Shown piece after piece: positions 5,871-24,805 of a stretch of DNA of 40,201 nucleotides. The notes below the pieces were generated by a model that was not told the DNA's origin, ran no database searches, and saw only the letters and a program-made list of their open reading frames with translations. Within the stretch, counting starts at the first letter, position 1, and each line of letters opens with the position of its first letter. This DNA is from an uncultured Bacteroidales bacterium (GTDB lineage Bacteria > Bacteroidota > Bacteroidia > Bacteroidales > Muribaculaceae), in the NCBI GenBank assembly GCA_902774055.1, contig CACYGX010000024.1, positions 1 to 40,201 of the forward strand. Reading direction: 5' to 3'. Both the position numbers and the translations under genes were made by a program.

Positions 5871-8438
5871 TTAATTTGTCAGCAGGATGTCGATGAGCGC
5901 CGACACGTCCGAGATGCCGATAGAGCCGTCACGATCCACGTCGGCAGCACCTGGATCATAGTTGGCCAGTACCGAGCCAAGCAGGACGTCGATCAGCGTC
6001 GATAAATCCTCGATATTGACACTGCCATCCATATTGAGGTCTCCGGGGGTCGAGGTCCTGGTTACCGTGACCACAAAAAATGTCGTCGCCAGTTTGCCGT
6101 TGCTGTCGGTTGTCACGTTGATGGTCGTCCTGCCCTGGGCCACGGCCTCAACCATCAGGTCTGTACCGCTCACCCACGCCCGAGCTACCGACTCGTTGTC
6201 GCTGACAGCGGTTGTCACAGCCAGCGCAGCCATGTTGTCCTCGTCACTGACGGCGTGCAACAAGTCAATGACATCAACCTGGCCCTGACGCAGTTGCCTG
6301 TCGGTGATAGCCACAATGGGCGCGCACACGTCGGGATAGACCGCCATTGCAGGGAACCAATAGGCATCCTGCAGACGCACTTGACGTTTCAGTTCCAGCG
6401 TGGTGGGGTTGTAGAAAAGAACCCAATTGTGATTAAAGTTCTGATAAGACATGGGAGCAGCCTCGACGGTTTGTACCACCATGTCGCCCGTGTGGGGGTC
6501 AAAACTGATGGCCGAAGCATAGAGGCCCTGGAGTTCCTTCGAGCCATCCCAATTGATCTCGACACCCTCGGGCAAAGAGATCAGAGCGTCGGTAAACGTC
6601 CTGGTCGTGAAATCGTAGCAACTGATATAGTTCTGGTACTCGTCGTAGTTATAATAAACACGCTCGGCATGCGGATCCACGCAGACCATTCTTGCCCGCC
6701 AAGCGCCCCAAGAGCTCATAGCGCCATGCAGGCCGTCGAGCATATGCACCTCAGCGGGACTGAGGGTGACAGGGTCGATGCGGGTAAAGTTGGCTGCGTA
6801 CGGACCACCGCTGTAGTCGTAGATTTCGCGGGAATTGTTGGCCACATACAGATTGCCGCCCGCAGTCACAAACACGGTAACGATATTGGGGAAGGACAGC
6901 GTGGTCACTACCGCATCGGTGACAGGGTCAATAACATGAAGTCCCCTGCCCTGCTGCACGGCGAATACATATTGGCCAAAGCGCACCATGTCGCCACACT
7001 GGTCCTTATAAAGGCTATTCTGGTCGCCGCGAGCGCTGGACATGGTCCCGGCGATGGAACTCACAACACTCATCGTGGGCACATCGATGACAAAGATGCC
7101 AGCATTGGTCGAGGCATAGCCCTTGGTGCCATTCACCGCACAGTAAGCACGACCGTCATAGACACTGTCGGCACTCTGGCCGAAGCGCAGGATGCTACCC
7201 TGCTGCTTGAGGGTCGTGGCATCGAGCACCGCGAGGCGGGAGCCCACAGTGCTGCCCGAGGCCTCATTGGCGTTAGCCTGCTTGCTGACAACAAAGAGTT
7301 TATCCCCAAAGAGCTGTCCAAACTGGGTAGTCACGCCCAATTTGGTATCGGGATTGACCATAGCATAGACATTGTACTCCATCTCGTCATAATCATAATT
7401 GTAGAAGTTGATGGAGCCTTGATTGGGTCCGTAACGGTCCTCATTGATGAAGATGACGCCATTGGTGAACGTGTAATCGTCTGGTCCAGGGCCAGGTTCA
7501 TCTGCCTCAGCATCGGGGTGAAGGTCCTCGGCGCCGCAGATCTCGGTCGATACCTCACCGAGCCATCCGCAATAGTCCAGTTGAGCGCAATAGACCTTGA
7601 TGAAATCGATATGGTCGAGTGTAACGGGATTACCGTCCTCATCAATCGCCCAATCGATCATGAAGCCAGGCTCCAAGTTGTTGGGCAGATTGTCCACATA
7701 GCCTTCGCCAAAGAACGGCTGGAACCAGTTGTTCCCATTGCCACCGCTCATGTCAATGGATGAGTTGGGCAACCTAGTGCCACGCATGGTGATTACCGTA
7801 TCCTCGATCCACAAGGGCCAGTAGGGCTGACTGTGGAAGGTGTTACGCCACACGTAACCATCACCCAGCTCAGCATCGTTGCTGGTCCAATGTACATACT
7901 CGATATCGTTGATAAAGCGCCAACTGGGGTGAGGCTCGCGCTCCTTGTTCTCATCGGGCTTGAAATAGGTCACCTCGAAGCCATGCTGGCAACGGTCGTA
8001 ATCCGCGCCCTTGATTTCATACCAATGGTCGGCGGCGCTGGGCACGCCATCGTCGTCCATGTCCACGCCCACCATAATGATGCCGGGTTCACAACTTCCA
8101 CCCATCTGATCGGGCACGGCCTGGCTCTGCATCGCATTGCCATAGATCTTCACATCATAGCCATGCTTATTGATCACGGGGTGGTCAAAGCCAAAAATGA
8201 TATACCCGCCATAGCTACCCAGGCTGACGGAGCCACTTATGCCACCACACAGTGAAGCCTCGAGTTGCGCATTGATGCTGTCCTGGGTATAACCAGGCTT
8301 GTAAGCCGGGAAAACGTTGACAAACTGTCCCGGTGCAGGCAGGTAGTCATACACGTGGGCGATGTAAGGCGAATTGCCGGCGCTAGCCAGTAGCACGCTC
8401 ATCACGGTCATCGTTGCGAGAAGTATCGTTTTCTTCAT
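5871..8438 (-). CDS. B12-locus surface protein fused to BtuG-like propeller, with dockerin tail
   Basis: 855 aa. Residues 1-20 are a signal peptide without a lipobox Cys. Residues about 24-315 match the surface protein at 23591-24805: shared blocks include PAPGQF, GYGGY, GFDHPV, MVGVDM, QPYWPLW, GYVDNLPNN and HIDFIK. Residues about 330-700 form a YncE/DUF5074-type beta-propeller opening GVIFINEDRYG, alignable with the opening of the BtuG-like protein at 24819-25997. Residues about 705-795 look like an Ig-like domain (TTINVTTDSNGK). Residues about 797-855 are a two-repeat dockerin-like module (GDLNMDGSVNIEDL; DVDRDGSIGISDV). It is first in a riboswitch-led operon, so expression should rise when cobalamin is scarce. 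By analogy with BtuG it may capture corrinoids at the surface; this is inference. Confidence 0.78.
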   Translation of the reverse strand: MKKTILLATMTVMSVLLASAGNSPYIAHVYDYLPAPGQFVNVFPAYKPGYTQDSINAQLEASLCGGISGSVSLGSYGGYIIFGFDHPVINKHGYDVKIYGNAMQSQAVPDQMGGSCEPGIIMVGVDMDDDGVPSAADHWYEIKGADYDRCQHGFEVTYFKPDENKEREPHPSWRFINDIEYVHWTSNDAELGDGYVWRNTFHSQPYWPLWIEDTVITMRGTRLPNSSIDMSGGNGNNWFQPFFGEGYVDNLPNNLEPGFMIDWAIDEDGNPVTLDHIDFIKVYCAQLDYCGWLGEVSTEICGAEDLHPDAEADEPGPGPDDYTFTNGVIFINEDRYGPNQGSINFYNYDYDEMEYNVYAMVNPDTKLGVTTQFGQLFGDKLFVVSKQANANEASGSTVGSRLAVLDATTLKQQGSILRFGQSADSVYDGRAYCAVNGTKGYASTNAGIFVIDVPTMSVVSSIAGTMSSARGDQNSLYKDQCGDMVRFGQYVFAVQQGRGLHVIDPVTDAVVTTLSFPNIVTVFVTAGGNLYVANNSREIYDYSGGPYAANFTRIDPVTLSPAEVHMLDGLHGAMSSWGAWRARMVCVDPHAERVYYNYDEYQNYISCYDFTTRTFTDALISLPEGVEINWDGSKELQGLYASAISFDPHTGDMVVQTVEAAPMSYQNFNHNWVLFYNPTTLELKRQVRLQDAYWFPAMAVYPDVCAPIVAITDRQLRQGQVDVIDLLHAVSDEDNMAALAVTTAVSDNESVARAWVSGTDLMVEAVAQGRTTINVTTDSNGKLATTFFVVTVTRTSTPGDLNMDGSVNIEDLSTLIDVLLGSVLANYDPGAADVDRDGSIGISDVSALIDILLTN

Positions 8439-8626
8439 ATCACGTTTTTTGTTTAATATCTGGTTTCGATTCCCTAATTATCAGGGAAATAAAGGTGGAT
8501 CCAGCGACACGAAGGAACTGATTACCGCTAGTGATGACTTCAATAAAACACACAGATTGCTCTGCATCATCATTACTTCGCCAGGGTTCAAGTGCCGCGT
8601 GAACCACAAATCATTGGCTGTGTGAA

Positions 8627-8825
8627 GGCAGGTCTTCTGGCTTCTCCCCCTTCGCGTCGGCGCCTTCCCGGTGATGATGCATACTCCAAGCGTTTGCAAC
8701 CAGTGGCATGATGCCGCGCGAAGTGTTGTCAGGGAGTTACAGCAGCGGGTACTGCTCAGGATTCTCACCTGATTCCCTTTTCATCCCTTGCCCCACAAGA
8801 GGCAGGGAACCTTGACACGTTCAAT
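8627..8825 (-). ncRNA. Cobalamin riboswitch, locus 1
   Basis: Read on the minus strand, the region carries the hallmarks of the cobalamin (adenosylcobalamin-type) aptamer. These are a 5' paired region around GGTTCCCTGCC, then GGGAATCAGGTGAGAATCC and the paired CAGTACCCGCTGCTG. The 3' end is the B12 box AGCCAGAAGACCTGCC (8627-8642). It lies downstream of a consensus promoter and upstream of the surface/propeller fusion gene. Unusually, about 190 bases separate the B12 box from the start codon. Outer boundaries are approximate. Confidence 0.92.
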
Positions 8826-8835
8826 TTGGTCAATG

Positions 8836-8869
8836 CAAAGTTACAACAATTATTTGAGACAACAACAAA
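8836..8869 (-). promoter_or_regulatory. Promoter of the locus 1 riboswitch
   Basis: The -7 box TAACTTTG (8836-8843) matches TAnnTTTG. Upstream is a TTG at 8863-8865 (19 bp spacer) within TTTTGTTG (TTTG at 8866-8869, 22 bp spacer). The expected start lies just upstream of the riboswitch. Confidence 0.55.
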
Positions 8870-8915
8870 ATTCTACATTTTGTTGCTCAAATGACAAGAA
8901 ACTGTTGGTTGAGTA

Positions 8916-8954
8916 AAAATGGGTGCCCCGCGTAATGAGCGGAGCACCCATTTT
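8916..8954 (-). terminator. Intrinsic terminator after the C10 peptidase gene
   Basis: On the minus strand AAAATGGGTGCTCCGC pairs with GCGGGGCACCCATTTT, almost perfectly, and is followed by further T residues. It starts 30 bases past the peptidase stop codon and insulates this unit from the riboswitch promoter. Confidence 0.85.
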
Positions 8955-8983
8955 GGGTGGTGAACAGTGTTGTATAGATACAA

Positions 8984-11281
8984 TTACTGATTCTCCAGGA
9001 GATTGTCGATGAGGGCACTCACGTCGGCTATCGTGACTTGGCCGTCGCCATTCACATCGCTATATTCCGAGGTGCCAGTGCTCAACAATTGGTCAATCAA
9101 GTCGGCAAGGTCGTTGATATTGGTCTCGCCGTCCAGATTCACATCGCCATCGGTCGGGTCAATGGGCATGATTTGGGAGAAGCGGTTCCACGGGGCAAGA
9201 TTCTTATAGGCCTCAACCGCATGAGCGGGCACTCGAAGTATTGCCTGGTCATAAAGCTTGTTGAACACATTGGCATTGACGGAAATGGGCTCGGGAATGA
9301 GGCAGGTGACAACCCGCAGGCTATCACACCCATTGAACAAGGAAGAACCGAATGTGGTGACGGATTTGCCAATGACCACATTCCTCAAGTTGGTGCATTT
9401 TGCAAACGCATTCATGCCGACCCTTGTGACCGCGTTTGGGATGGAAACACTCGTCAAACTCGAGCACAGGTTGAACGCATTGTTGCCAATCTCGGTAAGG
9501 GAGTTGCCCAATGTCAACTCCTCAAGCCCAGAGTTCTCATAGAAAGCATTCTGGTATATGACAGTGACCGAATTGGGGATATTCACCCGCTTCAATCCCG
9601 TACAATGATAAAAAGCACTGGAACTGATCGTTTTAACGGACTTGCCGAGGGTCAATTCCTTGATTCTAGTGTTCTTGGCGAAATTGCTGGGTATCACCAC
9701 GACGCTGTCGCCGACTATCACTTTTTGGGTATAATTAGGAACAATAGCCAGCACTGTGGGCAAGCAATTCTTGACATTCCAGATAAAACGCTTCAGATTG
9801 GTACAGCCCGAAAAAGCCTGATTACCCACCGAGACAACCGTTGACGGGATGGACAACTCGGCCATACTGACGCAATAGTCAAACACGTTATGACCTATTG
9901 TGGTGACCGACTCCGGCAGCTTGACGTTTGTCAGATTTTCACAACCCAAAAACATTTTTGGGGGCACCTCGGTGATGCCTGTAAAGTACTGGAACTCATC
10001 AAACGAGTACAATTTTGCCATGTAAAACGGTTTCAGCTCAGTCACCGCAGCGGCCTCCTCCATCGTGAGCACACCATCATCATTCTCATCAGCCGCATGC
10101 AGGCAAGAGGCTTCGGCCAAGGGGTCAGCGAACTGGATTCCTACCCCAGTGGGTGGCAAAGCCGGCCTGGGCTCAGCAAAGAAAACAGCTTCTTGGTTTT
10201 GGGAATAATTGATGAGACCTGTGCCCAACGAGTCGATGGCCGTGAGCCGATAATAGCCATTTGTGTTCCCCCACCCCCAAACGATGTGGAAGAATCCATC
10301 CCCGTCATAACCATCGCAGACAAAGGCATGGCCAACTGAGTTTGGACGCCAACCGGCATATAAAACGGGGCGCGAGTTGCTCAGTTCATCATAAACCAGG
10401 CTTTCCCACTCCTCATCGGTGAGGCCACAGTCGCCTCGATCCAGACACTCGGCCTTAGAGCTATAATTGAAATAGGCGATCAGCGCTGGCGGCACACTCG
10501 CCGTATAGGCACCCGATGCTCCAGTCGCATAATTCATCTGCACCGATGAGCCGCAATACTTCATCAGATTGGCCACTGCGTCTATCTGTTCTTGGGTCCT
10601 GCCCTCGTCACTCCAGTAAGCGGGCATCATGTTGTCCCAATCGATAAACGTGCCGGCGGGAATCGCCTCAACACTCACGCCTTTTTTAGTGGTATAGGCT
10701 GGCATATCGTGAGTCGTCCTGTTCACCGAGTTGGCATGGTGGTAATACATCACTTGGGCCATCGCAGTTGCCACACAACCAGTCACAAAGTGCCTGCCAA
10801 GGGAATCAAGCGGACAATAGATGTTATAAGGGTAGGTCTGGTCCCAGCGGGTTGTCAACATCGGGGTTACAGGCGGCATCGCAGGGGATTTGATGCTCCC
10901 ACGTGAAACAGACAAGCCATTGTCCCGCATAAACTGAATCTGGCGGGCATACTCATCGAGCCACCACTGCATGTTATCGGGCATATTGTCGATGTCAACC
11001 GAGCCCGTGTCAGAATAGCCCAAGATGGCGGGGGCGCAATCGTCACCGCTGGCAATAACATAGCCAGCATTGTCACCGATGTTGAACACATAGTAGGCCG
11101 ACGACGGGGCCGCCATCGGAGCATGACGCAACGACGAGGGCATGACGCTCTTGCCACGCTGCAGGAGGAAGGCCTGAGCGTTAGCCTGTGCCTGTTGCCA
11201 TGATATGGGTTTAGCCAGCATGTGGGGCGCAAATGCCCCACATGCTAAAGTTAACGCCACTATGATTGATTTAATTTCCAT
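8984..11281 (-). CDS. Secreted C10 (streptopain-like) cysteine peptidase with LRR and dockerin tail
   Basis: 765 aa. A signal peptide covers about residues 1-23. Residues about 25-130 resemble the C10 propeptide (SAYYVFNIGDNAGYVIASGDD). The peptidase domain runs about 135-375. Its catalytic Cys is about residue 169 in TGCVATAMAQVMYYH and its His about 318 in VGHAFVCDGYDG, followed by WGWGN, all as in SpeB-type enzymes. Residues about 395-415 contain an EF-hand-like loop (DENDDGVLTMEE). Residues about 435-690 are BspA-type LRR_5 repeats. The end (about 709-765) is a dockerin-like pair (DVNLDGETNINDL; DVNGDGQVTIADV). It overlaps the upstream LRR gene by 11 bases, implying co-transcription and coupled translation. 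An extracellular protease is well supported; the LRRs may bind host or partner proteins (inference). Confidence 0.88.
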   Translation of the reverse strand: MEIKSIIVALTLACGAFAPHMLAKPISWQQAQANAQAFLLQRGKSVMPSSLRHAPMAAPSSAYYVFNIGDNAGYVIASGDDCAPAILGYSDTGSVDIDNMPDNMQWWLDEYARQIQFMRDNGLSVSRGSIKSPAMPPVTPMLTTRWDQTYPYNIYCPLDSLGRHFVTGCVATAMAQVMYYHHANSVNRTTHDMPAYTTKKGVSVEAIPAGTFIDWDNMMPAYWSDEGRTQEQIDAVANLMKYCGSSVQMNYATGASGAYTASVPPALIAYFNYSSKAECLDRGDCGLTDEEWESLVYDELSNSRPVLYAGWRPNSVGHAFVCDGYDGDGFFHIVWGWGNTNGYYRLTAIDSLGTGLINYSQNQEAVFFAEPRPALPPTGVGIQFADPLAEASCLHAADENDDGVLTMEEAAAVTELKPFYMAKLYSFDEFQYFTGITEVPPKMFLGCENLTNVKLPESVTTIGHNVFDYCVSMAELSIPSTVVSVGNQAFSGCTNLKRFIWNVKNCLPTVLAIVPNYTQKVIVGDSVVVIPSNFAKNTRIKELTLGKSVKTISSSAFYHCTGLKRVNIPNSVTVIYQNAFYENSGLEELTLGNSLTEIGNNAFNLCSSLTSVSIPNAVTRVGMNAFAKCTNLRNVVIGKSVTTFGSSLFNGCDSLRVVTCLIPEPISVNANVFNKLYDQAILRVPAHAVEAYKNLAPWNRFSQIMPIDPTDGDVNLDGETNINDLADLIDQLLSTGTSEYSDVNGDGQVTIADVSALIDNLLENQ

Positions 11282-13769
11282 TTAACAAAGCATCAATCAG
11301 CGCCGACACGTCCTTGATATCCACCACGCCGTCACCATTGACATCGGCATTGCCGGGAGCAGGAGTACTGCCATCGAGTAGCAGGTCAATCAAGTTCGAC
11401 ACGTCCTTGATACCGATCTCGCCATCACCGTCAACGTCGCCAGCAGCGGCCAGGCCCTGGATATGGGCAAACTTGAACCAGAAATCGGCAGCGCTGTAAG
11501 CATCGATGACGGTATTCGGGACAAATAATGTAGCCTGACTGTAGGTCCTATTGGAGAACACGTTGGCATTTTCCATCACGGGAGGAACCAGGCTCCAGCA
11601 AGTGACGGACTGCAGGTCGGTGCAGTAGTTGAACGCTTTCTCGCCAATCGTTGTCACACCTGAACCCATCGTCACGCTGGTCAAGGCGGTGCAACCCTGG
11701 AAGGCCATCGAGCCGATAGCGGTCACCGAGGCGGGAATTGTCACACTCGTCAATTCCTCGGCGCCATCAAACGCATTGTCGTCAATTGATGTGACAGTAA
11801 AGGTGAAGTTTTCATAAGACACTGTGTCGGGAATCATCACGTTGCCCGAGTAATTGTCCGCGCCAACTTCCTTGCTTGTCACGCACACGGTACTGTCGCC
11901 AGTCACCTTGTAACGGATGCCATCCACCTCGAAGGCCATTCCCGGCACAAAGATGCCCTCGATGACTTTGAACTTACTCCAGTTAGTTGCAGCCCTATAG
12001 TCGTCAACAGCCGTGATGGGCACTTGCAGTTTACCATACGTCATACAGAAACTCTCAATACCATAGTCACGGAGGTCGGGTGGCGTGGAGGCCAAGGAAA
12101 TCACCGTTCTCAAGTAATAACAATTGTTGAAAGCGTGTTGGCCAATGTAAGTGATTGAACTTGGCAGGGTGACACTCGACAGATTTGTACATCCATTAAA
12201 TGACATGTAGCCAATCTTTGTCACTGAGTTGGGTATCGTCAAGTTCGTCAAGCCAGAACACTCATAAAACGAACAATAATCAGTTTCGGTGAGCGAAGTG
12301 GGCAAAACCAGTGTAGTTAAAGATGAACATTTACGGAAAGCATATCGACCGATTGAAGTGATCGTGTTTGGGAATTCTATGGCCTCCAATGCCGTGCAGC
12401 CATAAAAAGCCTCATCGCCGATAGCGGTAACCGAAGATGGGATATCGATGTGAACTAGGGTTTTACAATTCCGGAAAGATCTAGCGCCGATGGTCGTGAC
12501 AGAATTGGGGATAACCGTGGCCTGGCATCCCACGACCAGTGTACCGGTAGCGGTTTCGATGACGGCATTACAGTTACCACGAGAATCAAATACCGGGTTG
12601 GCATTGTCAACCTGGATGCTGGTCAAAGACGTACAACCAGAAAAAGAGCCACTATGGATATTGGTGACAGAACTGGGAATGAAAATGCTTGTCAAGTTGG
12701 CACAATCCTGAAAAGCATAAGACCAAATCGTGTTGACGGTGTTCGGTATGAACGAATTCATACAGCCAACAATCAACCTATTGGTCTCGCTGATGATGAT
12801 AGCGTTACAATTCTCGCGTGAGTCATACACTGGATTATCACTTGCCACATTGATTTCGGTGAGACCTGTACAGCCAGCAAACACCTCATAACTTATTGAC
12901 TCTACTGACTTGGGAAGGTATAGACTGGTCAAACCAGAACAATTCTGGAACGATTCATAGTCGAGTTTTTTAACACCCTCACTGATTGTAAGGCTTGTCA
13001 AGCCTGAACAGCCGTAAAATGCTCGAGGGTTAAGAGTAGTCAGCGAAGCAGGGATCACCACACTCGTCAAGCCGGAACAGTTCTCAAAACCGGACCAACC
13101 AACGCTGGTGATGTTGTCAGGGAGATCGATGCTGGTCAAGCCCGTGCAAGAAGCAAAAGCACGCTCGCCAAACGAAGTGACTGAATTGGGAATCGTCACA
13201 CTCGTCAAATTCTTACAATTGTAGAAAGCCTGTCCAGCTACACATTTGGTCCCTTCCCTGATCTCGATGCTGGTGCCTGCAGGCATCGTGCCCTTATAGG
13301 TATAGAGCACCTTACCCGCATAAACTACACCATCGGGCTGATTTGCCAGCCAGGGCGTATCGCGGAAAACGTCATAGCCGATAAAAGAGACCGAATTGGG
13401 GATGTCAAAATCCTCCATTTGGGTACAACCATAGAAGGCGCCGTCGCCAATCGTTGTAAGTGTTTCGGGTAAGACAATACTCGTCAATCCAGAGCACTGA
13501 AAGAAGCCATAACGATCAATTGTGGTGACCACATAAGAATGACCATCATAGTCCACAAAGGCTGGAATCACCACGTCCCCGCTATAGCTGGGGTCATAAG
13601 ACCAATTCGGCTCTGTTTCGGTTGTAACAGTAACCGTTGATCCATCATCATTAATACTGTAGAAGATGCCATCAACCTCAAAGTCATACTGTGCCGCATT
13701 AACTACCGAGAAACCCAGTAGTTGGCAAAACAACACGAGTAATAGTTTCAGAAAGTAGGATTTTTTCAT
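11271..13769 (-). CDS. Secreted BspA-like leucine-rich repeat protein with dockerin tail
   Basis: 832 aa. Residues 1-25 are a signal peptide with no lipobox. From about residue 55 to 600 there are many LRR_5 (BspA/TpLRR) repeats of about 23 residues, of the form LTSV-IP-SVT-IG--AF-GC. A spacer with a second YKVTGDSTVCVTSKE-type module follows, then more LRRs to about 770. The C-terminal 57 residues are a dockerin-like pair (DVDGDGEIGIKDVSNLIDLLL; DVNGDGVVDIKDVSALIDALL), with good Ca-loop residues. BspA-type repeats usually mediate adhesion to host matrix proteins or other bacteria; a specific ligand cannot be read here. It is first of a two-gene operon with the C10 peptidase. Confidence 0.88.
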   Translation of the reverse strand: MKKSYFLKLLLVLFCQLLGFSVVNAAQYDFEVDGIFYSINDDGSTVTVTTETEPNWSYDPSYSGDVVIPAFVDYDGHSYVVTTIDRYGFFQCSGLTSIVLPETLTTIGDGAFYGCTQMEDFDIPNSVSFIGYDVFRDTPWLANQPDGVVYAGKVLYTYKGTMPAGTSIEIREGTKCVAGQAFYNCKNLTSVTIPNSVTSFGERAFASCTGLTSIDLPDNITSVGWSGFENCSGLTSVVIPASLTTLNPRAFYGCSGLTSLTISEGVKKLDYESFQNCSGLTSLYLPKSVESISYEVFAGCTGLTEINVASDNPVYDSRENCNAIIISETNRLIVGCMNSFIPNTVNTIWSYAFQDCANLTSIFIPSSVTNIHSGSFSGCTSLTSIQVDNANPVFDSRGNCNAVIETATGTLVVGCQATVIPNSVTTIGARSFRNCKTLVHIDIPSSVTAIGDEAFYGCTALEAIEFPNTITSIGRYAFRKCSSLTTLVLPTSLTETDYCSFYECSGLTNLTIPNSVTKIGYMSFNGCTNLSSVTLPSSITYIGQHAFNNCYYLRTVISLASTPPDLRDYGIESFCMTYGKLQVPITAVDDYRAATNWSKFKVIEGIFVPGMAFEVDGIRYKVTGDSTVCVTSKEVGADNYSGNVMIPDTVSYENFTFTVTSIDDNAFDGAEELTSVTIPASVTAIGSMAFQGCTALTSVTMGSGVTTIGEKAFNYCTDLQSVTCWSLVPPVMENANVFSNRTYSQATLFVPNTVIDAYSAADFWFKFAHIQGLAAAGDVDGDGEIGIKDVSNLIDLLLDGSTPAPGNADVNGDGVVDIKDVSALIDALLNGN

Positions 13770-14550: not shown

Positions 14551-14557
14551 TTAAGTT

Positions 14558-16895: not shown

Positions 16896-16902
16896 GGGAT
16901 TG

Positions 16903-16933: not shown

Positions 16934-16966
16934 CAATTTTCAAGAAAAAATTCTAAGAAATTTTCG

Positions 16967-17046: not shown

Positions 17047-17104
17047 ACGATCCATGAATAGAAAAAAGCGATAAAACGGCGCAAACCAGAGGTTTGCGAT
17101 ACAC

Positions 17105-17179: not shown

Positions 17180-17207
17180 ATCGCTCAACAATCCATCACA
17201 AAAAAAG

Positions 17208-17229
17208 CAGGCCCCGTGGGTGGGGCCTG
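17208..17229 (-). terminator. Intrinsic terminator of the 530-aa secreted protein gene
   Basis: CAGGCCCC / GGGGCCTG with a 6-base loop, followed on the minus strand by seven T residues after GC. It starts 53 bases after the stop codon. It resembles the terminators of the three neighbouring paralogs (GTCAGG...CCTGAC). Confidence 0.8.
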
Positions 17230-17282
17230 ACTTTATCGTCTTGATTGCCACTTGGCGTGAAGCGGCAGGGGGCTTGTCTTGA

Positions 17283-18875
17283 TTAATCCCAAGAACCGGT
17301 CAACAGGTAGTCGATCAAGGCCGAAACGTCAGCGATGCCTACCTCACCGTCGAGATTGCAGTTGGCATTATCAAGGTTGACACCTTCAGTTTCACCAGTC
17401 AGCAGGTAGTCGATCAAGGCCGAAACGTCGGCGATAGCCACCTCGTTGTTGTCGTCCACGTCACCACGCAGGCCCTGGGGCTGCTCGCCGCCATCCTTCT
17501 TGCAAGCAAAGGTCACCTTGGGCAAGAATTTGTCGGTCTTGGTGTAATGGCCAAAGTTGGAGCTATAGGTATAGTAGGCGGTGAGGCCTTGGGTAGATTC
17601 ACCATAGAAATTAGTGGTACCAAAGTTGCCGGCCTCGGTCACAACGGTAGCGATCACCAGGTTGCCGCCATTGTACTTGTAAGGCTCGTCAAAAGTGATG
17701 ACAAACTCCTCGGCATAGCGCTCAGGAACGACATTAGCGACGACAGTGGTACCCGTGATGGGCACACCGTTGTCCTCAAATACCGTCTGCTCGGTCTCCT
17801 TGAGCGAGAACTGCACATTACCATTATAGAATGCCAGTCCGTCCCTGGGATAGAATGTGAGAGAAATGATCTCCTTGCCGGCAAAGTCAGTCAGTTTCTC
17901 GGCAGGATAGATCATCTGGCCCTCGCCACCGGGGAAATCATAATATAAGCCATAGACGGGCAATGCACTCGTGGTCAAAGAGCCACCCTCGCCGCACACC
18001 GTGTACTCATCGGCCTCGGGGAGCCCCCTGCCACTGAGAGCCACCTGGAACGTGCCAGCAGCGCCACAGTCAATGGTCAACGCACTAGCAAAGTCGCCCT
18101 CGGCAGTTGGAGCGAACTTCACGGGCACTGTCATGGATTCACCAGCAACGAGTTCGGCGGGCTGTGCATCGACGCTGAACGGCGCTTGAACGTTAAAGGC
18201 GGGAGTGAAGGGATTTTGTCCCACATTCTTGATGACGACACTCATTTCCTCTTCATTACCGATGCGCTGCGGGTGGAAAGCGACCTCGGTGGGGGTCACC
18301 GTGGCAGCATACTCGGCGGGAGTGTATTCAAAGGTGGTCTTCGGGATAAACGACACCTGCGTGCTGCGGGATTTGCCCGAACTATAGAACGGATTAGTGC
18401 CCAAGAAATAGGCATAACCAAAATCGCCAGCCTCCTCCACATAGGAGTCAAACAACAGATTACCGCCATTGTAAACAAAGGGCTTGTCAAAGGGGATAAC
18501 TATGTCCGTCACGCCATTAGGGATTGAAATGGTGGCGACACGGGTCAAGCCTTCGGTCACAAATTGATTGGTCGAGAAATCTCTCTGTTCCACGATACCC
18601 AGCGACACGGCAACCTGGCCACCCGAAGCGTCAGTCATTCCATTAATGTAGAATCTCATTGACGTGATGGGACGCCCGATCATCTCGGTCAGTTTCTCTG
18701 CCGGATAGATCACCTGGGACTGTGTGCCGACAGATTCCAGATAATAGGTGTTAATGGGGATGGTGCGGTCGGTAGCAGTGCCCTCATAGATGGTCAACTC
18801 GGCCGCCTGGGCAGGGGTGAACAGCCCCATTGACATCAGTGATACAATAAATAGTCTAAAGAATTTCTTCATCAT
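17283..18875 (-). CDS. Secreted modular protein, paralog 1 (beta domain, Hydin-like, beta domain, dockerin)
   Basis: 530 aa. A signal peptide covers about residues 1-25. Residues about 26-195 are a beta-rich domain with signatures YPAEKLTEMIG, TSMRFY, NGGNLL and IPKTTFEY. Residues about 196-290 look like a Hydin/ASPM-type immunoglobulin-like domain (VKNVGQNPFTP-like; LTIDCGAAGTF). Residues about 295-465 repeat the first domain (YPAEKLTDFAG, NGGNLVIATVV, LPKVTF). After the linker PQGLRGDV come two dockerin-like repeats, ending in LTGSWD. There is no lipobox and no catalytic motif. Its closest architectural match in the window is the 535-aa paralog at 21673-23280. Function unknown; surface localisation is inferred from the signal peptide and the shared tail. 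Confidence 0.75.
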   Translation of the reverse strand: MMKKFFRLFIVSLMSMGLFTPAQAAELTIYEGTATDRTIPINTYYLESVGTQSQVIYPAEKLTEMIGRPITSMRFYINGMTDASGGQVAVSLGIVEQRDFSTNQFVTEGLTRVATISIPNGVTDIVIPFDKPFVYNGGNLLFDSYVEEAGDFGYAYFLGTNPFYSSGKSRSTQVSFIPKTTFEYTPAEYAATVTPTEVAFHPQRIGNEEEMSVVIKNVGQNPFTPAFNVQAPFSVDAQPAELVAGESMTVPVKFAPTAEGDFASALTIDCGAAGTFQVALSGRGLPEADEYTVCGEGGSLTTSALPVYGLYYDFPGGEGQMIYPAEKLTDFAGKEIISLTFYPRDGLAFYNGNVQFSLKETEQTVFEDNGVPITGTTVVANVVPERYAEEFVITFDEPYKYNGGNLVIATVVTEAGNFGTTNFYGESTQGLTAYYTYSSNFGHYTKTDKFLPKVTFACKKDGGEQPQGLRGDVDDNNEVAIADVSALIDYLLTGETEGVNLDNANCNLDGEVGIADVSALIDYLLTGSWD

Positions 18876-18936
18876 ACAGCATTAATGATTAAGTAAGTTA
18901 ATAATTCAGGTTTCAGGTAAATGACTTTACAAGGCT

Positions 18937-18944
18937 CAAAGGTA
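18937..18944 (-). promoter_or_regulatory. -7 box for paralog 1
   Basis: TACCTTTG on the minus strand matches TAnnTTTG, 61 bases upstream of the start codon. No TTTG is found 19 bp upstream, unlike the other three paralogs. Confidence 0.4.
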
Positions 18945-19012
18945 CACAAATAATTGTTATCCCCACAGCCCAATCGCCCTTAAAACAAGGAAAGATTACC
19001 TTACCCGAAAAA

Positions 19013-19044
19013 AAGTCAGGCCCCAAGTGTGTGGGGCCTGACTT
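19013..19044 (-). terminator. Intrinsic terminator of paralog 2
   Basis: AAGTCAGGCCCC / GGGGCCTGACTT, a 12-bp perfect stem with an 8-base loop, running into seven T residues on the minus strand. It starts about 38 bases after the stop codon. Confidence 0.88.
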
Positions 19045-19081
19045 CATCGTCTAATGCCGCTAGGCATTAGTCTTGTCTTGA

Positions 19082-20416
19082 TTAATCCCAAGAACCAGTC
19101 AACAGGAAGTCGATGAGCTTGGAAACGTCAGCGATGGTGACACCGTCAACGAGGTTGCAGTCAGCGTTCTCCAGGTTGACACCAGTAGCGTCACCAGTCA
19201 GCAGGTAGTCGATCAGAGCCGAAACGTCAGCGATGGTTACCTCATGGTTGTCATTCACGTCACCGCGCAGGCCCTCGGGCTCGGGCTCAACATATTTCAC
19301 CCAATCAAGGAGAGCGAACTCATAGACACCATTATTCTTGACAATAATGCCATAGGCATTCCAATCGCCCATGGTGGGCTGATTCACTGCCCAGGGATAG
19401 GAAGCAATCGTAATGTTGCCGCCATTCAGCGGTAATGTGCGGATCGGGAGGAAACCCTTGTTCACCTTCTCGACGTAAACATAGGCATTGAGCATGCTGT
19501 CATCAACGGGGAAGTCGGTGATCTTCTGAGCAGCAGCCAGCTCGGCATTGGTCTCACCGCTGGCGCTAAGGCCTGCAGCATCGGTGTACCAAACCCAACC
19601 GTCATTGCTGGTCTTGGTGGCATTCCAGCCCTGGCTCAGTACCTGACCATTCTCGAAGTTGCCCTCTACGCCAGAAATCATGGCGTAACCGCTCTCGTCG
19701 CGCAAGAACAGGTAGCCAAGATTGAAGGCGGTAACAACAGCGTCGCCGTCGAAGGTGAACGCAGCATTGTCCTCCAGTGCGTTAGCCTCGGACAAGAGAG
19801 CGATACCTTCCTCTTGAGCACCGCCACCTTCATAGGTGAAGGTGGCCTTGGGCAGATTGACATCACCCTTCGTGCTGCCAGCCCAGCCATAAGAGCTCAT
19901 GACTAAGTATGAACCCATTTCCTTGCCATAGAAGTATGTGTCTTGATACTCACCTGCAGTTGACTGAACATCAATCAACAGAGCACCACCAGTGTAGGTA
20001 AAGGCATTGTCGAAAGTAATGGCCCAAACGCCATCTTCATCTGCAGCAGGAACTACAGTAGCAACAGCGGTTACAGGAACATTCAGCAAGTCACCAGAAA
20101 CACCACCCCATGCGTCAGGAGTCCAAGGAGTCACATCGTCCATGTTGGCCAGTGAAATCGTTACAGAGCCACCCAGTGCGTTTACAGTACTGGGGGTACT
20201 GGTGTAGAATTTCACGCCAGTAATCTCGGTACCAGCAGCCAAGCCAGTCAACTCAGCAGCGGGATACTGCATCTGGTTGTGCTGATCGGTTTCGAAGTTA
20301 TAGCCATAGACGGGAGCATACTCACAATTGGCGGTGCCATCAGCAGCAGTCCATTCTGTGGCCTGGGCAGCAAATGCTATTGCTGCCACAGCAAAAAGCG
20401 TTAAAACTTTCTTCAT
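19082..20416 (-). CDS. Secreted modular protein, paralog 2 (beta domain, OB-like domain, dockerin)
   Basis: 444 aa. A signal peptide covers about residues 1-19. The first domain (about 20-198) is the same beta-rich type as in the neighbours (YPAAELTGLAAG, GVKFY, TGGALLIDV, LPKATFTY). The middle (about 205-375) differs: NLGYLFLRDESGYAMISG resembles OB-fold-like domains of Bacteroidetes surface proteins, followed by a Trp-rich stretch. The linker PEGLRGDV leads to two dockerin-like repeats and the end LTGSWD. The second Ca loop is unusual (CNLVDGVTIADV) and the first lacks the usual Gly (DVNDNHEVTIADV). It is monocistronic with a consensus promoter. Function unknown. Confidence 0.72.
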   Translation of the reverse strand: MKKVLTLFAVAAIAFAAQATEWTAADGTANCEYAPVYGYNFETDQHNQMQYPAAELTGLAAGTEITGVKFYTSTPSTVNALGGSVTISLANMDDVTPWTPDAWGGVSGDLLNVPVTAVATVVPAADEDGVWAITFDNAFTYTGGALLIDVQSTAGEYQDTYFYGKEMGSYLVMSSYGWAGSTKGDVNLPKATFTYEGGGAQEEGIALLSEANALEDNAAFTFDGDAVVTAFNLGYLFLRDESGYAMISGVEGNFENGQVLSQGWNATKTSNDGWVWYTDAAGLSASGETNAELAAAQKITDFPVDDSMLNAYVYVEKVNKGFLPIRTLPLNGGNITIASYPWAVNQPTMGDWNAYGIIVKNNGVYEFALLDWVKYVEPEPEGLRGDVNDNHEVTIADVSALIDYLLTGDATGVNLENADCNLVDGVTIADVSKLIDFLLTGSWD

Positions 20417-20503
20417 AAAAAAAACAGTTTAAGAAATTAATAAAAATATGTTAACAATACGAAATTCAGTTGATTCTCTAAAAAGAGGGCTTCATTATGG
20501 CGA

Positions 20504-20534
20504 CAAAAATAACGCTTTGACGCCTAATTACAAA
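20504..20534 (-). promoter_or_regulatory. Promoter of paralog 2
   Basis: -33 TTTG (20531-20534), 19 bp spacer, -7 TATTTTTG (20504-20511). This is a full consensus match with a leader of about 80-90 bases. The same layout is seen upstream of paralogs 3 and 4. Confidence 0.65.
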
Positions 20535-20572
20535 ATAATTTTGTCGCATTTCATTATTATTCACCGAAAAAG

Positions 20573-20602
20573 GTCAGGTCCCCTGCAATTAGGGAACCTG
20601 AC
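20573..20602 (-). terminator. Intrinsic terminator of paralog 3
   Basis: GTCAGGTT / GGACCTGAC-type stem with one mismatch and an AT loop (TGCAATT on the plus strand), followed by TTTTT on the minus strand. It is nearly identical to the terminator at 21587-21616. Confidence 0.78.
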
Positions 20603-20658
20603 TTCTTCATGAATTATCACTCAATAGAGAGCGATACTAAAATTATTCTCTTGAATGA

Positions 20659-21432
20659 TTAGTCCCAAGAATTGGTCAACAGGTAGTCGATCAAAGCCGA
20701 AACGTCGGCGATGGTGATACCGTCCTGGAGGTTGCAGTCAGCATTCTCCATGTTGATACCAGTAGGATCATTAGACAGCAGGTAGTCGATCAGAGCCGAA
20801 ACGTCGGCGATGGTTACTTCATGGTTGTCATTCACGTCACCGCGCAAGCCCTGGGGCTCGGGGGTGTCACCGCTGCCGTAATCAAACGTTGTGTGAGGCA
20901 AGAAATAACGGGGATACCAATTGCCATAGGCCTTGGTGATGCCAGCGTAGTTGTCGGTCTCGACGCCCCAGAAGTAGGTCATGCCATAACCACCGGCTTG
21001 AGCCACCACAGTGGAGAGGATAAGGTTGCCACCCTGGTACTCATAGGGGGTGGTGAAGGTGAAAGTGATTTCGGTAGCGTCTGTGGTCTTGGTCATTGTG
21101 GCGGTGCCCACCAGGGTCAGCCCCTCGGTCACATACGCATTATTGAATGCGGTCAGTTCGGTTTCGCCCAGATAGATGTTGAGCAAGCCATCGCTCATCT
21201 TGCAACCGGTCTCGTCGGTGTAGAAGGTCATCGAGTTGATTGTCTTGCCCACCATGGCGGTAAGGTCGGCAGCGGGATAGAGCGTCTGGGTAATAGAGCC
21301 TTCGGAGTCATACCACTGGCTGTTGACGGGCACGTAGTAGTCAAATTTTTCGCCATTGTACAGGTCAAGTGTCTCGGCCGATGCTGAGAGCAACATCAAT
21401 GCTGCAGCAGCAAGCGTAAAAAATTTTTTCAT
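20659..21432 (-). CDS. Secreted modular protein, paralog 3 (one beta domain, dockerin)
   Basis: 257 aa, the minimal member of the set. A signal peptide covers about residues 1-19. One beta-rich domain spans about 20-190 (YPAADLTAMVG, INSMTFY, YQGGNLILSTVV, LPHTTFDYG). The linker PQGLRGDV is followed by two dockerin-like repeats (DVNDNHEVTIADV; DCNLQDGITIADV), ending in LTNSWD. The 3' end and downstream sequence are almost identical to those of paralog 4, pointing to a recent tandem duplication or gene conversion. No enzymatic or lipoprotein features. Function unknown. Confidence 0.74.
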   Translation of the reverse strand: MKKFFTLAAAALMLLSASAETLDLYNGEKFDYYVPVNSQWYDSEGSITQTLYPAADLTAMVGKTINSMTFYTDETGCKMSDGLLNIYLGETELTAFNNAYVTEGLTLVGTATMTKTTDATEITFTFTTPYEYQGGNLILSTVVAQAGGYGMTYFWGVETDNYAGITKAYGNWYPRYFLPHTTFDYGSGDTPEPQGLRGDVNDNHEVTIADVSALIDYLLSNDPTGINMENADCNLQDGITIADVSALIDYLLTNSWD

Positions 21433-21518
21433 AAAAAAAATAGTTTAAGTAATTAATAGAAATATGTTAATAATACGATAATCAGTCGTCTCTCAAGTAA
21501 GAGATCTTTTTAATGGCG

Positions 21519-21549
21519 CAAAATTAACGCTTTGAGACCTAATCTCAAA
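21519..21549 (-). promoter_or_regulatory. Promoter of paralog 3
   Basis: -33 TTTG (21546-21549), 19 bp spacer, -7 TAATTTTG (21519-21526). Full consensus; the surrounding sequence is recognisably homologous to the paralog 2 promoter region. Confidence 0.65.
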
Positions 21550-21586
21550 ATATTTTTTGCATAATTCATTATTATTCACCAAAAAA

Positions 21587-21616
21587 GTCAGGCCCCCTGC
21601 AATTAGGGAACCTGAC
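21587..21616 (-). terminator. Intrinsic terminator of paralog 4
   Basis: A GTCAGGTT / GGCCTGAC-type stem around TGCAATT (plus strand), followed by six T residues on the minus strand. Sequence and surroundings match the paralog 3 terminator. Confidence 0.78.
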
Positions 21617-21672
21617 TTCTTCATGAATCATCGCTCAATAGAGAGCGATACTAAAAAAGTTCTCTTGAATGA

Positions 21673-23280
21673 TTAGTCCCAAGAACCAGTCAACAGGTAG
21701 TCGATGAGCTTGGAAACGTCGGCGATGGTGATACCGTCCTGGAGGTTGCAGTCAGCGTTCTCCACGTTGATAGCGGTGTCGTCACCGGTCAGCAGGTAGT
21801 CGATCAGAGCCGAAACGTCGGCGATGGTTACTTCCTGGTTGTTATTCACGTCACCGCGCATGCTCTGGGGCTCAGGGGTGTCTTCCTTCACGTAACCGAA
21901 GGTTGCCATGGGGAGGAAGTTGTAAACGTGGGTCTCATAACCCAGATCCCAGAAGTAAGCATAAGAAGCGCCAGCCTTCTCGATGCCACAGAACTTCTCA
22001 ACGCCATATTCACCTTCCTCAGTCACCAGTACCTCGATAGCGAGGTTACCACCGTTATACTCATAAGGCTCGGTAAAGTTGAACACGATATCGCCATTGA
22101 CAGGTGATGCGTTGGCAATAACAGTCATATCGGTATAAGGGTTAGCACTTGCAAATGCATCCTCTTCTACGGCCTTGATAGAGAGCTGAAGGTTACCATT
22201 AGCCATGTACTTGTTAGCGGGCTTCTGGCTCTGGAAAGTGATTGAGTTGATCTTCTTGCCTGCGAGAGCGGTCAACAGGTCAGCGGTGTAGATCATTTGG
22301 CTTACATTGCCACTATTCTCACGGTCAAAGTTCATAGCGTTTACGGGGACATTCCCTTGGACGACGTCACCTTCAGCAACAACGACCAGAGCGGGAGCCT
22401 CGGCTGCAGTGGCAGTCATGGGAATATTAAAGTTACCAGCAGCACCACAGTTAATGGTCAGGGTAGCATTGTAATCACCAGCGACTTCAGAAGCAAACTT
22501 CACGACAATATTCATTGCCTCACCATGAGCGAGTTCAACGGGAGTAGCCTCAATGCTGAAAGGAGCCTCAACAGTACCAATAACAGGGGTAAATGCATTC
22601 TGACCCATGTTCTTCAGGGTGATTGTCTTGGTGGCTTCTTCGCCAAGATATACGGTACCAAAAGCAACTTCTTGAGCGCTAACAGTAGCATTATCTGCTA
22701 AAAACTCATAGGTAAAAGTGGTCTTGGGATAGAAATTGGTTTCGCCACCAAAACTAGAGCTAGCATAACCCACATTATTCACGGGTGCACTCTGGCCATA
22801 GAAATTGACATGTTTATAAGAGCCATTTGCAATAACCACAGTCTCAATTACGAGATTGCCACCCTCGTAAGCCCAAGGCTCATCAAAATTGACAACAACC
22901 TCAGTTTCACCAGTTGTCATGGTAATTTCGGCAACCTTAGTCAATCCAGTAGTAATAAAGTCGGGCATATAGCCAGAATAAGCGGTCTTCTCGGTAGTAC
23001 CTAAAGAAACGGCCAGCTTTTCGCCATTCAGTTTATTACCCTCAGCATCGGCAATGTAGAACTTCATCGATGAAATGAGGCCACCATTCATTGCAGCAAG
23101 ATCTTCTTCAGGCATGATGGTCTGCACCTTGTAGTTGGCGACATCGCAATTGTAGCCATAGAACGGAGTGCACTCACTGGTTTGAACATCGTTATAGACG
23201 GTCAGTTCATCGGCCTGTGCGGACACGAACGAAGTCAGCGCGATGAGCGCTGCGGACATGAGTTTAAAACTTTTTTTCAT
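21673..23280 (-). CDS. Secreted modular protein, paralog 4 (beta domain, Hydin-like, beta domain, dockerin)
   Basis: 535 aa. A signal peptide covers about residues 1-23. The first beta-rich domain (about 24-195) has ISSMKFYIAD, EGGNLVIETVV and YPKTTFTYEF. A Hydin-like domain follows (about 196-290; TLKNMGQNAFTPVIG, LTINCGAAGNF), then a second beta domain (about 295-470; INSITFQ, NGGNLAIEVLV, LPMATFGY). The linker PQSMRGDV leads into dockerin-like repeats (DVNNNQEVTIADV; DCNLQDGITIADV), ending LTGSWD. Domain order equals that of paralog 1, while the tail and terminator equal those of paralog 3, so the family shows module exchange. Function unknown. Confidence 0.75.
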   Translation of the reverse strand: MKKSFKLMSAALIALTSFVSAQADELTVYNDVQTSECTPFYGYNCDVANYKVQTIMPEEDLAAMNGGLISSMKFYIADAEGNKLNGEKLAVSLGTTEKTAYSGYMPDFITTGLTKVAEITMTTGETEVVVNFDEPWAYEGGNLVIETVVIANGSYKHVNFYGQSAPVNNVGYASSSFGGETNFYPKTTFTYEFLADNATVSAQEVAFGTVYLGEEATKTITLKNMGQNAFTPVIGTVEAPFSIEATPVELAHGEAMNIVVKFASEVAGDYNATLTINCGAAGNFNIPMTATAAEAPALVVVAEGDVVQGNVPVNAMNFDRENSGNVSQMIYTADLLTALAGKKINSITFQSQKPANKYMANGNLQLSIKAVEEDAFASANPYTDMTVIANASPVNGDIVFNFTEPYEYNGGNLAIEVLVTEEGEYGVEKFCGIEKAGASYAYFWDLGYETHVYNFLPMATFGYVKEDTPEPQSMRGDVNNNQEVTIADVSALIDYLLTGDDTAINVENADCNLQDGITIADVSKLIDYLLTGSWD

Positions 23281-23350
23281 AAAAGTGTTAAGTTGATTAG
23301 AAAGTTATAATAATACGAACTTGGTTTCATTTAATGGTAGCAAGTAGTCG

Positions 23351-23367
23351 TTTGTACTTCGTACAAA
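23351..23367 (-). repeat. Hairpin at the 5' end of the paralog 4 transcript
   Basis: TTTGTAC / GTACAAA with a 3-base loop. It begins within about 8 bases of the -7 box at 23375-23382, so it would cap the 5' end of the mRNA. No T-tract follows. Confidence 0.4.
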
Positions 23368-23374
23368 TACGCGT

Positions 23375-23405
23375 CAAAAGTACTCAGATTTTTAGATTTT
23401 TCAAA
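23375..23405 (-). promoter_or_regulatory. Promoter of paralog 4
   Basis: -33 TTTG (23402-23405), 19 bp spacer, -7 TACTTTTG (23375-23382), a full consensus match with a leader of about 90 bases. The remainder of the 310-base gap, 23406-23590, holds no visible gene and no strong terminator for B12 locus 2; only a weak CGCT/AGCG hairpin lies near 23515-23530. Confidence 0.65.
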
Positions 23406-23590
23406 ATTATTCATGTGAAAACTTGTGAAATCATTCTCATTCCACCCAAAATCCATAGTCCAGTATGTTTTCCAAGTGCTCTCTTCGAGGCACAATAAAT
23501 GCACTCAAAGCGCTAATTATCAAGCGTTTTGAAGTAAGGAAACGACCCATCAGCAACTATGCAAATATGAGAATGCAGTTGGCTGGTCGG

Positions 23591-24805
23591 TTATTGCAAG
23601 ATAAGGTCGATAAGCTTATTTACATCACTGATATTTACCTCGCCGTCCTGGTTGACATCGGCAACAGTTGTCACCACTCCCGCCAGGATATAGCTTATCA
23701 GTGCATTAACGTCACTGATGCTCACCTCGGCATCGCCGTCCACGTCGCCCACAATAATGTCTGGAAGAACGGCATCGGGATGGAAATCGATGCCTGCTGC
23801 GACCTCGGTCGAGGTCTCGCCGGTCCAGCCGCAATACTGGTTCATCGCGTTGTAAATCTTGATGAAGTCGATGTGCGTGAGGTTGACGTGGCGGCCTTGC
23901 TCGTCCACAGCCCAATCGATCTTGAAGCCTGGATTATAGACACTGCCTTCTTCAGAGATGAAATTGGGGTTGTTAGGGAGGTTATCGACATATCCCCAGT
24001 CAAAGAAATATTGCACAAAATAGGAATTACCGTCGTTGCCTCCCAAATCCACGGCGTTACAACGCAGTTTTGAACCCGTGAACGTCAGGGACTCCTCGTC
24101 CTGCAGCCACAAGGGCCAGTAGGGCTGGTTGTGGGCGGTGTTGCGGCTCATGTATCCGCTGATGCTGTCAGGATCGACGTCGTTGCTGGTCCAGCGGATG
24201 TAGGTCGTGTCGTTCAAGTACGGATCGACATGGCTGGGCGTGCGCGGCTTGTTCTCGTCGGGGCGGTAATAGGTAATCGTGTAGTCATGTTGAGTCTTGG
24301 GGTGGCTATATTCGCTGCCGGCAAGCTCATACCAGGCGTCGCCGTCGTCGGGCACTCCATTGCCGTTCATGTCCACTCCCACCATGACGATGCCAGGCTC
24401 GCTGCTGCCGCCACGCGTCTCGCGGTCGCTGACAAAGGCATTGCCCTGAATCTCAAAATCATAGGTGTGCATATTGACAACGGGATGGTCAAAGCCGACG
24501 ATGACATATCCACCATAGCCTCCGAGGGAAATCATGCTCTCGGCCCAAACGGTATCGACGCGGGTGATCACCTCGCCATGAAAGGTCACCGACACTGTAT
24601 CGACATGGCCGCAGATGCTCCTGTGGCAACGTGCTAACACGCTATCGACAGGCTCCCCTACCCTGCTGACGGGCAAGGTGTTGATGAATTGCCCAGGGGC
24701 GGGTCGGTATTCATAAACGCGCGACAGCCACGGGTGGTTAGCCCACAGGGTCAAGGCCGACAGGATAACAAACGCGAGTGCTGTGATATTTCTTGAAAAA
24801 CTCAT
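23591..24805 (-). CDS. B12-locus secreted surface protein with dockerin tail
   Basis: 404 aa. Residues 1-22 are a signal peptide (MSFSRNITALAF...LWA) with no lipobox. Residues about 23-345 form the domain shared with the N-terminal part of the 855-aa fusion at 5871-8438. Shared blocks are PAPGQF, LGGYGGY, GFDHPV, EPGI, MVGVDM, QPYWPLW, GYVDNLPNN, IDWA and HIDFIK. A Ca-loop-like DMNGNGVPDDGD is also visible, and many acidic and aromatic residues suggest a beta-rich fold. Residues about 352-404 are two dockerin-like repeats (DVDGDAEVSISDVNALI; DVNQDGEVNISDVNKLI). It is third in the riboswitch-btuB-btuG operon, 13 bases after btuG, so B12-linked surface function is likely; direct corrinoid binding is inference. 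A counterpart of known B12-locus surface proteins is plausible but not proven. Confidence 0.75.
   Translation of the reverse strand: MSFSRNITALAFVILSALTLWANHPWLSRVYEYRPAPGQFINTLPVSRVGEPVDSVLARCHRSICGHVDTVSVTFHGEVITRVDTVWAESMISLGGYGGYVIVGFDHPVVNMHTYDFEIQGNAFVSDRETRGGSSEPGIVMVGVDMNGNGVPDDGDAWYELAGSEYSHPKTQHDYTITYYRPDENKPRTPSHVDPYLNDTTYIRWTSNDVDPDSISGYMSRNTAHNQPYWPLWLQDEESLTFTGSKLRCNAVDLGGNDGNSYFVQYFFDWGYVDNLPNNPNFISEEGSVYNPGFKIDWAVDEQGRHVNLTHIDFIKIYNAMNQYCGWTGETSTEVAAGIDFHPDAVLPDIIVGDVDGDAEVSISDVNALISYILAGVVTTVADVNQDGEVNISDVNKLIDLILQ

Follow-up and report, generated by a model that had tools for sequence, protein, structure and literature searches.

The window described here, a stretch of 40,201 nucleotides from an uncultured Bacteroidales bacterium, encodes eight exported proteins that share a dockerin-like module at the C-terminus. 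These eight tails are probably type I dockerins that act as surface-docking tags and are captured by cohesin scaffolds, which are encoded elsewhere in the same genome. The parts of such a system, namely dockerins, cohesin-fold modules and the core proteins SprA and PorU family of the type IX secretion system (T9SS), can be recognized in the sequence, as can a swap of tails in the C10 peptidase family.

All eight open reading frames named in the preliminary description are present, and each of the products matches the Pfam dockerin model PF00404 (26.1–34.9 bits, cut-off 22.9) with the two calcium-loop/helix repeats of a type I dockerin, the last repeat lying 5–9 residues from the C-terminus. 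The strict two-repeat motif that had been ascribed to all of them occurs twice in four proteins and only once in the other four, the tandem proteins 17283–23280, because their second calcium loop is degenerate. A looser form of the motif, drawn up after the tails had been viewed, occurs twice in all eight, and at least one copy is found in 2 of 40,000 shuffled tails. Solved dockerins rank at the top of a PDB search with the dockerin part of a profile of adjoining cohesin and dockerin modules (coh-doc). The N-termini look by eye like Sec signal peptides, as had been stated; a crude signal-peptide heuristic misses that of the protein at 11271. The reported lack of a lipobox holds by eye for seven proteins and is ambiguous for the one at 8984, the LTLAC of which is flagged by a permissive pattern; the same pattern flags the protein at 19082, at a site outside the signal peptide.

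The window itself contains no visible cohesin, as had been noted, but cohesins are encoded elsewhere in the genome. The system, which had been put forward as undescribed, is therefore of a known kind, cohesin–dockerin, in an unusual lineage and role. The idea of a general sorting, anchoring or docking tag stands in so far as exported proteins of unrelated kinds carry the module as a general tag at the C-terminus; the absence of cohesins that went with it does not.

Scanning for further carriers yielded at least 151 dockerin matches (matches, not proteins; 150 of 247 candidates were scored) in the 3.17 Mb of this genome, assembled in 54 contigs, and a lineage-specific expansion among its relatives. 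The proteins that carry the module were surveyed in a cargo sample made up of regions surrounding dockerins and cohesins, the window among them, that total 374 kb of the same genome. This sample contains 90 dockerin proteins, 87 of them complete, and 72 of the complete ones have the dockerin no more than 12 residues from the C-terminus; the remaining 15 include six cohesin proteins. By the crude heuristic, 62 of the 72 terminal-dockerin proteins have a signal-peptide-like start, compared with 24 of 100 other open reading frames, and for several of the exceptions the start seems to have been called wrongly. The tails are thus not scattered at random over cytoplasmic proteins. When 64 of the 72 were scanned with Pfam (the window’s own eight were scanned separately), the leucine-rich repeat (LRR) family LRR_5 was found in 18 proteins, C10 peptidases in 11, M6 in 7, C39-like in 5, S8 in 4 and CotH in 4, the C39-like matches probably overlapping the C10 ones. 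Among the 25 commonest of the 49 cargo families, a single catalytic glycoside hydrolase family was found, GH53 with one member. The cargo is therefore dominated by LRR proteins and peptidases, not by plant-polysaccharide enzymes, and the tag sits on unrelated exported proteins that are rarely glycosidases.

Positions 10 and 11 of the dockerin loop touch the cohesin in clostridial dockerins. In 110 loops that fit a search pattern, position 10 is Ile in 108, and positions 10–11 are Ile-Ala in 63. A different architecture was observed at L178:1784-7951, L182:4494-6242, L182:10092-11465, L183:4960-6948, L137:5947-7347 and L150:5944-7347. In these proteins an N-terminal or central dockerin, or a coh-doc unit, precedes a domain that ends in CRVSYRN...GFRLAL, much as formylglycine-generating-enzyme-like proteins do.

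Cohesins, scaffolds and their distribution

A cohesin-like receptor had been envisaged, and modules with a cohesin fold do occur in scaffold-like proteins of this genome, at most two to a protein; they co-occur with dockerins across the sampled genomes. The Pfam cohesin model PF00963, tried alone as a detector, was rejected, giving just two matches in this genome, one of them over the cut-off (28.3 vs 24.1); at the same lax E-value the control matched 2 of 14 genomes, one over the cut-off. On the scaffold of locus L135 the model scores 22.9, under the cut-off, and it does not match that of L133. In the relative G039 it scores 58.8 on a protein of 1239 residues and finds nothing in the 2466-residue neighbour.

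An author-built profile reveals tandem-cohesin scaffoldins, with six cohesins and a dockerin in L133 and L134, and with eight and five cohesins in L132 of G039; the three loci were first located with a five-row profile from the window's own genome. Cohesins and dockerins are also neighbours within single polypeptides, and gene pairs of a scaffold and an adaptor recur, the scaffolds being of LRR type and the adaptors coh-doc proteins. Both scaffoldins of L132 (G039:C25:205500-225000) carry T9SS sorting domains and InlB-type B-repeats, and they adjoin a protein that contains an internal dockerin and is T9SS-like by eye at its own end.

The sorting domains of the two G039 scaffoldins are over the cut-offs of both PF18962 and TIGR04183, so that a cohesin scaffold with a curated-grade T9SS domain, the arrangement proposed for Candidatus Stygibacter, is present in this relative. 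The scaffolds of the window's own genus end in one of two variant tails, homologous scaffolds bearing one or the other. Faint matches of the variant-tail families to T9SS type C (E-value 0.012; 2 of 9) and type A (0.022; 2 of 10) are suggestive of T9SS-type tails. Their designation as certain T9SS domains was dropped as unproven, the curated models failing and the profile comparisons being weak. The predicted structure of a scaffold (pLDDT, predicted local distance difference test, 70.9) was left aside for tail assignment. The genome encodes SprA (2639.6 bits) and five matches to the PorU family of T9SS sortases, all over the curated cut-off. The PorU-family matches lie at G000:C13:24298-40128 and C20:44291-47614 (L188, L189, L190), four of them clustered on one contig; the variant tails could be what such an enlarged set of sortases acts on.

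Dockerin and cohesin matches were counted in a sample of the order (61 genomes, of which 37, G000–G036, belong to the genus) and in one of the family (198 genomes, 30 genera). The genus is probably Sodaliphilus, judging from dockerin counts and features and from labels of metagenome-assembled genomes (MAGs) rather than from marker genes. The dockerin expansion is lineage-specific. In the order sample, all 37 genus genomes have at least 29 dockerins, while outside the genus G039, from another family, has 38, nine genomes have one or two and 14 have none. In the family sample, at least 30 are found in all 16 genus genomes and in G061, from another genus, and 0–9 in the rest. Cohesin matches occur in 38 of the 38 order-sample genomes with at least 29 dockerins and in 1 of the 23 others (Fisher 1e-15). 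Among the 182 family-sample genomes outside the genus, dockerins are present in 36 of 45 cohesin-bearing and in 31 of 137 cohesin-less genomes (Fisher 8e-12). A scan with organism names gave 31 loci, each in a genome of an uncultured member of the Bacteroidales; the labels are Muribaculaceae, Prevotellaceae, Bacteroidales, Bacteroidaceae, Prevotella and Porphyromonadaceae. A ruminant is named in many of the titles, the SRR8387* bins state no host, and RUG in genome names stands for rumen.

Tails of the C10 peptidases and the B12 loci

The module had also been proposed as an alternative to type IX signals or to lipidation. A comparison of C10 peptidases bears out the former, supporting a replacement in which the dockerin of the genus stands where the T9SS tail of its relatives is. 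In 15 complete homologues from 11 genomes outside the genus (three each from G059 and G039), TIGR04183 matches 14, PF18962 13 and PF00404 one, from G039. In 24 proteins of the genus, 16 of them complete, PF00404 matches 21, and PF18962 and TIGR04183 match none at an E-value of 0.01; the author-built profile places a dockerin in 14 of the complete ones. Likewise, PF18962 matches none of the eight dockerin proteins of the window. The eight incomplete C10 proteins of the genus are cut within the dockerin by the end of the retrieved stretch, and a T9SS tail beyond it would therefore be invisible, although such an arrangement would be odd. Proteins cut before any tail were excluded from the count, both in the genus (L090, L091, L095, L101, L102 and L131:2-1189) and outside it (L122:2745-4499 and L123:1-1257). 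The number of C10 matches per genome in the order sample is 2–33 in the genus (24 in the window's own genome) vs 0–9 in the other 24 genomes.

PF18962 domains are scarce in the genus, with 2–8 per genome in the 37 genomes of the genus vs a median of 43 in the 23 others, among the matches listed, while G039 has 71 alongside its 38 dockerins. This scarcity is no proof of replacement, because the variant tails escape the model.

Features of the window around the dockerin proteins and B12 loci
Coordinates	Strand	Feature	C-terminal module
4852..5829	-	DUF4465 protein	Variant T9SS-like tail, 4855-5001
5871..8438	-	B12-locus protein; DUF5074 after residues 19-307	Dockerin, 5880-6047
8610..8829	-	Cobalamin riboswitch, 106.2 bits; precedes 5871-8438	
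8984..11281	-	C10 peptidase; Spi inhibitor propeptide, BspA-type LRR	Dockerin, 8996-9148
11271..13769	-	BspA-type LRR_5 protein	Dockerin, 11283-11444
17283..18875	-	ASH/choice-of-anchor-D-like domain protein	Dockerin, 17301-17465
19082..20416	-	Exported protein	Dockerin, 19100-19264 (sole Pfam match)
20659..21432	-	Exported protein	Dockerin, 20677-20841 (sole Pfam match)
21673..23280	-	Choice-of-anchor-D protein	Dockerin, 21691-21855
23591..24805	-	B12-locus protein like 8blw_B/7biz_A	Dockerin, 23600-23749
24819..25997	-	BtuG-like protein; 3dsm_A, E 1.5e-12; LVMLAGC at N-terminus	
25997..28081	-	BtuB-like TonB-dependent receptor; TIGR01779, 113.7 bits (under cut-off 599.7)	
28098..28315	-	Cobalamin riboswitch, 84.6 bits; precedes BtuB-like locus	

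Two of the dockerin proteins belong to B12 loci. Residues 19–307 of the protein at 5871 resemble the “YncE family protein” of PDB chain 8blw_B and the “Cell surface protein” of 7biz_A, the latter being BtuH. The protein at 23591 shares 44% identity with the N-terminal part of the one at 5871 over 347 columns. The chain 8blw_B also has a part that resembles the BtuG-like neighbour at 24819. One riboswitch lies 171 bp upstream of the gene at 5871, and the BtuB-like and BtuG-like locus behind the other closes with the dockerin protein at 23591. The BtuG-like protein is likely a lipoprotein, from its N-terminus, and no dockerin was seen at its C-terminal end. The tail of the DUF4465 protein is of a variant type that is also present on several cohesin scaffolds of the genome. 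The choice_anch_D match of the protein at 17283 scores 39.2 bits, under the cut-off of 45.

The structure 3dsm is that of BtuG2 (PMC6143338), in Bacteroides both BtuG and BtuH are lipoproteins of the cell surface (PMC10404256, PMC8941943, PMC13398666), and DUF4465 is a B12-binding family (PMC13398666). The dockerin proteins of the B12 loci are thus homologues of members of Bacteroides surface-lipoprotein sets, and the presence of a tag on two proteins where the Bacteroides homologues are lipid-anchored is a second hint of a tag swap.

Proposed surface docking and its alternatives

In the proposed mechanism, the tagged proteins would leave via Sec and then fold, and calcium-dependent cohesin–dockerin binding would capture the folded proteins on the scaffolds. 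C-terminal domains of T9SS type, which are clear in G039 and suggestive in the genus, would hold these scaffolds on the outside of the outer membrane. A single socket system could in this way present many different proteases, adhesins with LRRs and proteins for nutrient capture, none of which would need a lipid anchor or sorting domain of its own. The outer membrane might be crossed by the tagged protein’s own export followed by capture, or by carriage along with a cohesin protein. Binding, surface location and calcium dependence are what we infer from the sequences.

Several observations weigh against surface docking on cohesin scaffolds. The sockets, about 15 cohesin modules, are far fewer than the dockerin matches of the same genome. 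The Pfam model finds no cohesin in the proteins to which the author-built profile assigns eight or six, and the best PDB match of a cohesin sequence is weak (E-value 0.011). The scaffold tails of the genus fail both PF18962 and TIGR04183, their profile comparisons with canonical tails give weak probabilities of 54.8% and 26.8%, and the two variants are unlike each other (2.1%). A variant tail occurs 27 times in the window’s own genome vs three PF18962 matches, showing how far such tails escape the model, and in 4 of the 23 comparison genomes, too, the number of PF18962 matches is as low as 0–5. The Fisher tests of co-occurrence treat genomes as independent despite their kinship. G061, with its expanded dockerins, has no cohesin match at 85% completeness, perhaps because its cohesins have diverged, because contigs are missing or because the receptor is a different one, and no dockerin was found in 9 of the 45 genomes that bear cohesins outside the genus. 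Two of the 16 complete C10 proteins of the genus (L107, L114) lack a dockerin and end in tails that are T9SS-like by eye and match no model, and one of the 24 matches a model named for a T9SS-dependent endonuclease.

The tagged proteins lack recognised lipid or T9SS signals, and carriage with a cohesin partner is therefore the boldest reading available. It is a doubtful proposition that the lineage has exchanged covalent or lipid anchoring for a plug-and-socket arrangement, with the dockerin as an export-and-display tag and T9SS-tailed cohesins carrying folded cargo through or onto the translocon. Equally tentative is the related view of the dockerin as a passport for export through the T9SS translocon, used by piggyback on a T9SS-tailed cohesin protein or by direct recognition. 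This view is favored by the contrast among C10 peptidases (T9SS sorting domains in 0 of 24 vs 14 of 15), by the absence of the variant tail from all 72 terminal-dockerin proteins, by the presence of SprA and the five PorU-family matches, and by the joining of cohesins and T9SS tails on one protein in G039. However, dockerins far outnumber cohesins.

It is improbable that the modules mostly serve periplasmic or intramolecular pairing with their own or neighbouring cohesins and form no surface assembly. Cohesins and dockerins do adjoin within the same polypeptides, and the dockerin proteins have no recognised outer-membrane export signal, but 69 of the 72 terminal-dockerin proteins in the sample do not themselves contain a cohesin, and the cargo (C10, M6 and S8 peptidases, BspA-type LRR proteins, B12-locus proteins) is expected outside the cell. 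A classical plant-fibre cellulosome, the sense in which rumen surveys interpret dockerin counts, is very improbable even though many relatives come from ruminants and Sodaliphilus was proposed as a candidate for cellulose degradation on such counts (PMC10872696); it was rejected on the cargo of the 64 proteins scanned, with LRR_5, C10, M6 and S8 proteins set against a single GH53 among the 25 commonest of 49 families. Scarcely credible is a calcium-binding repeat without a partner, a relic or a product of neutral spread, to which the cohesin-less dockerins of G061 would lend themselves, given the near-uniform loop residues, the dockerins in 37 of 37 genus genomes and the recurring scaffold–adaptor gene pairs.

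If docking on cohesin scaffolds is true, the role of cohesin–dockerin assembly would shift from fibre degradation to a general display of surface proteins, among them proteases, adhesins and those that capture vitamins. The proposal also raises a testable question, that of the surface route of Bacteroidota proteins that have a signal peptide and neither a lipid anchor nor a recognised T9SS tail.

Comparison with known systems

The T9SS type A sorting domain (PF18962/TIGR04183) is, like the dockerin, a C-terminal tag, and is found on the C10 homologues outside the genus. It is, however, a distinct module and serves attachment to surface polysaccharide or lipid, not docking. The B12-locus proteins of the window resemble BtuG and BtuH of Bacteroides (PMC6143338, PMC8941943) in lying near BtuB, in the window under cobalamin riboswitches, and differ in that two of them bear a dockerin where those of Bacteroides are lipid-anchored (PMC10404256).

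Dockerin-rich Bacteroidota are already in print. Sodaliphilus MAGs, probably of the same genus as here, were reported with 63–107 dockerins each, which were taken as a sign of cellulose degradation, the word “cohesin” being absent from the main text (PMC10872696). Bacteroidetes bins from the camel rumen have up to 11 dockerins, and bins 129 and 136 are listed with two cohesins and one, respectively (Table 1 of PMC6071333); no scaffold architecture, anchoring or tail replacement was found for them in the passages of that paper. Another camel-rumen study detected cohesins in Firmicutes_A bins only (PMC9177762), which fits the failure of the Pfam model to detect most of the cohesins described here; selected passages of PMC5831590 (for its genome) and PMC9177762 give no cohesins in Bacteroidetes. 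That Pfam passes one of about 15 cohesins is a possible reason why rumen surveys of Bacteroidota count plenty of dockerins but hardly any cohesins, or none. In the open-licence literature searched (titles, starts of abstracts and selected passages), no description of the arrangement in Bacteroidales was found, nor any of the cohesin set of the genus, its scaffold–adaptor architecture, its non-fibre cargo or the replacement of sorting tails by dockerins.

The cellulosomes of clostridia and ruminococci share with this system the type I dockerin, the cohesin fold, the scaffold, adaptor and anchor-like architecture, and the multi-cohesin scaffold that bears a dockerin of its own. An excess of dockerins over cohesins is known from genomes such as that of R. 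albus (PMC6118326), and LRR_5-dockerin proteins from a Ruminococcus (PMC7480376). The differences lie in the host, a member of the Bacteroidota with a T9SS, in the few glycosidases of the sampled cargo and in anchoring by T9SS-type tails (G039) as opposed to Gram-positive means.

Candidatus Stygibacter (Cloacimonadota) has a putative cellulosome-like complex, in which enzymes with signal peptides, including peptidases, carry C-terminal dockerins and a tandem-cohesin scaffoldin has a conserved C-terminal surface-attachment domain, for which T9SS literature is cited; as here, it was deduced from the genome (PMC8542988). It belongs to another phylum and comprises four kinds of dockerin enzymes and one scaffoldin of 3,755 residues with a carbohydrate-binding module (PMC8542988). 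The system described here differs from it in its much larger dockerin set, the LRR-type scaffolds, the coh-doc adaptors and the replacement of T9SS tails by dockerins.

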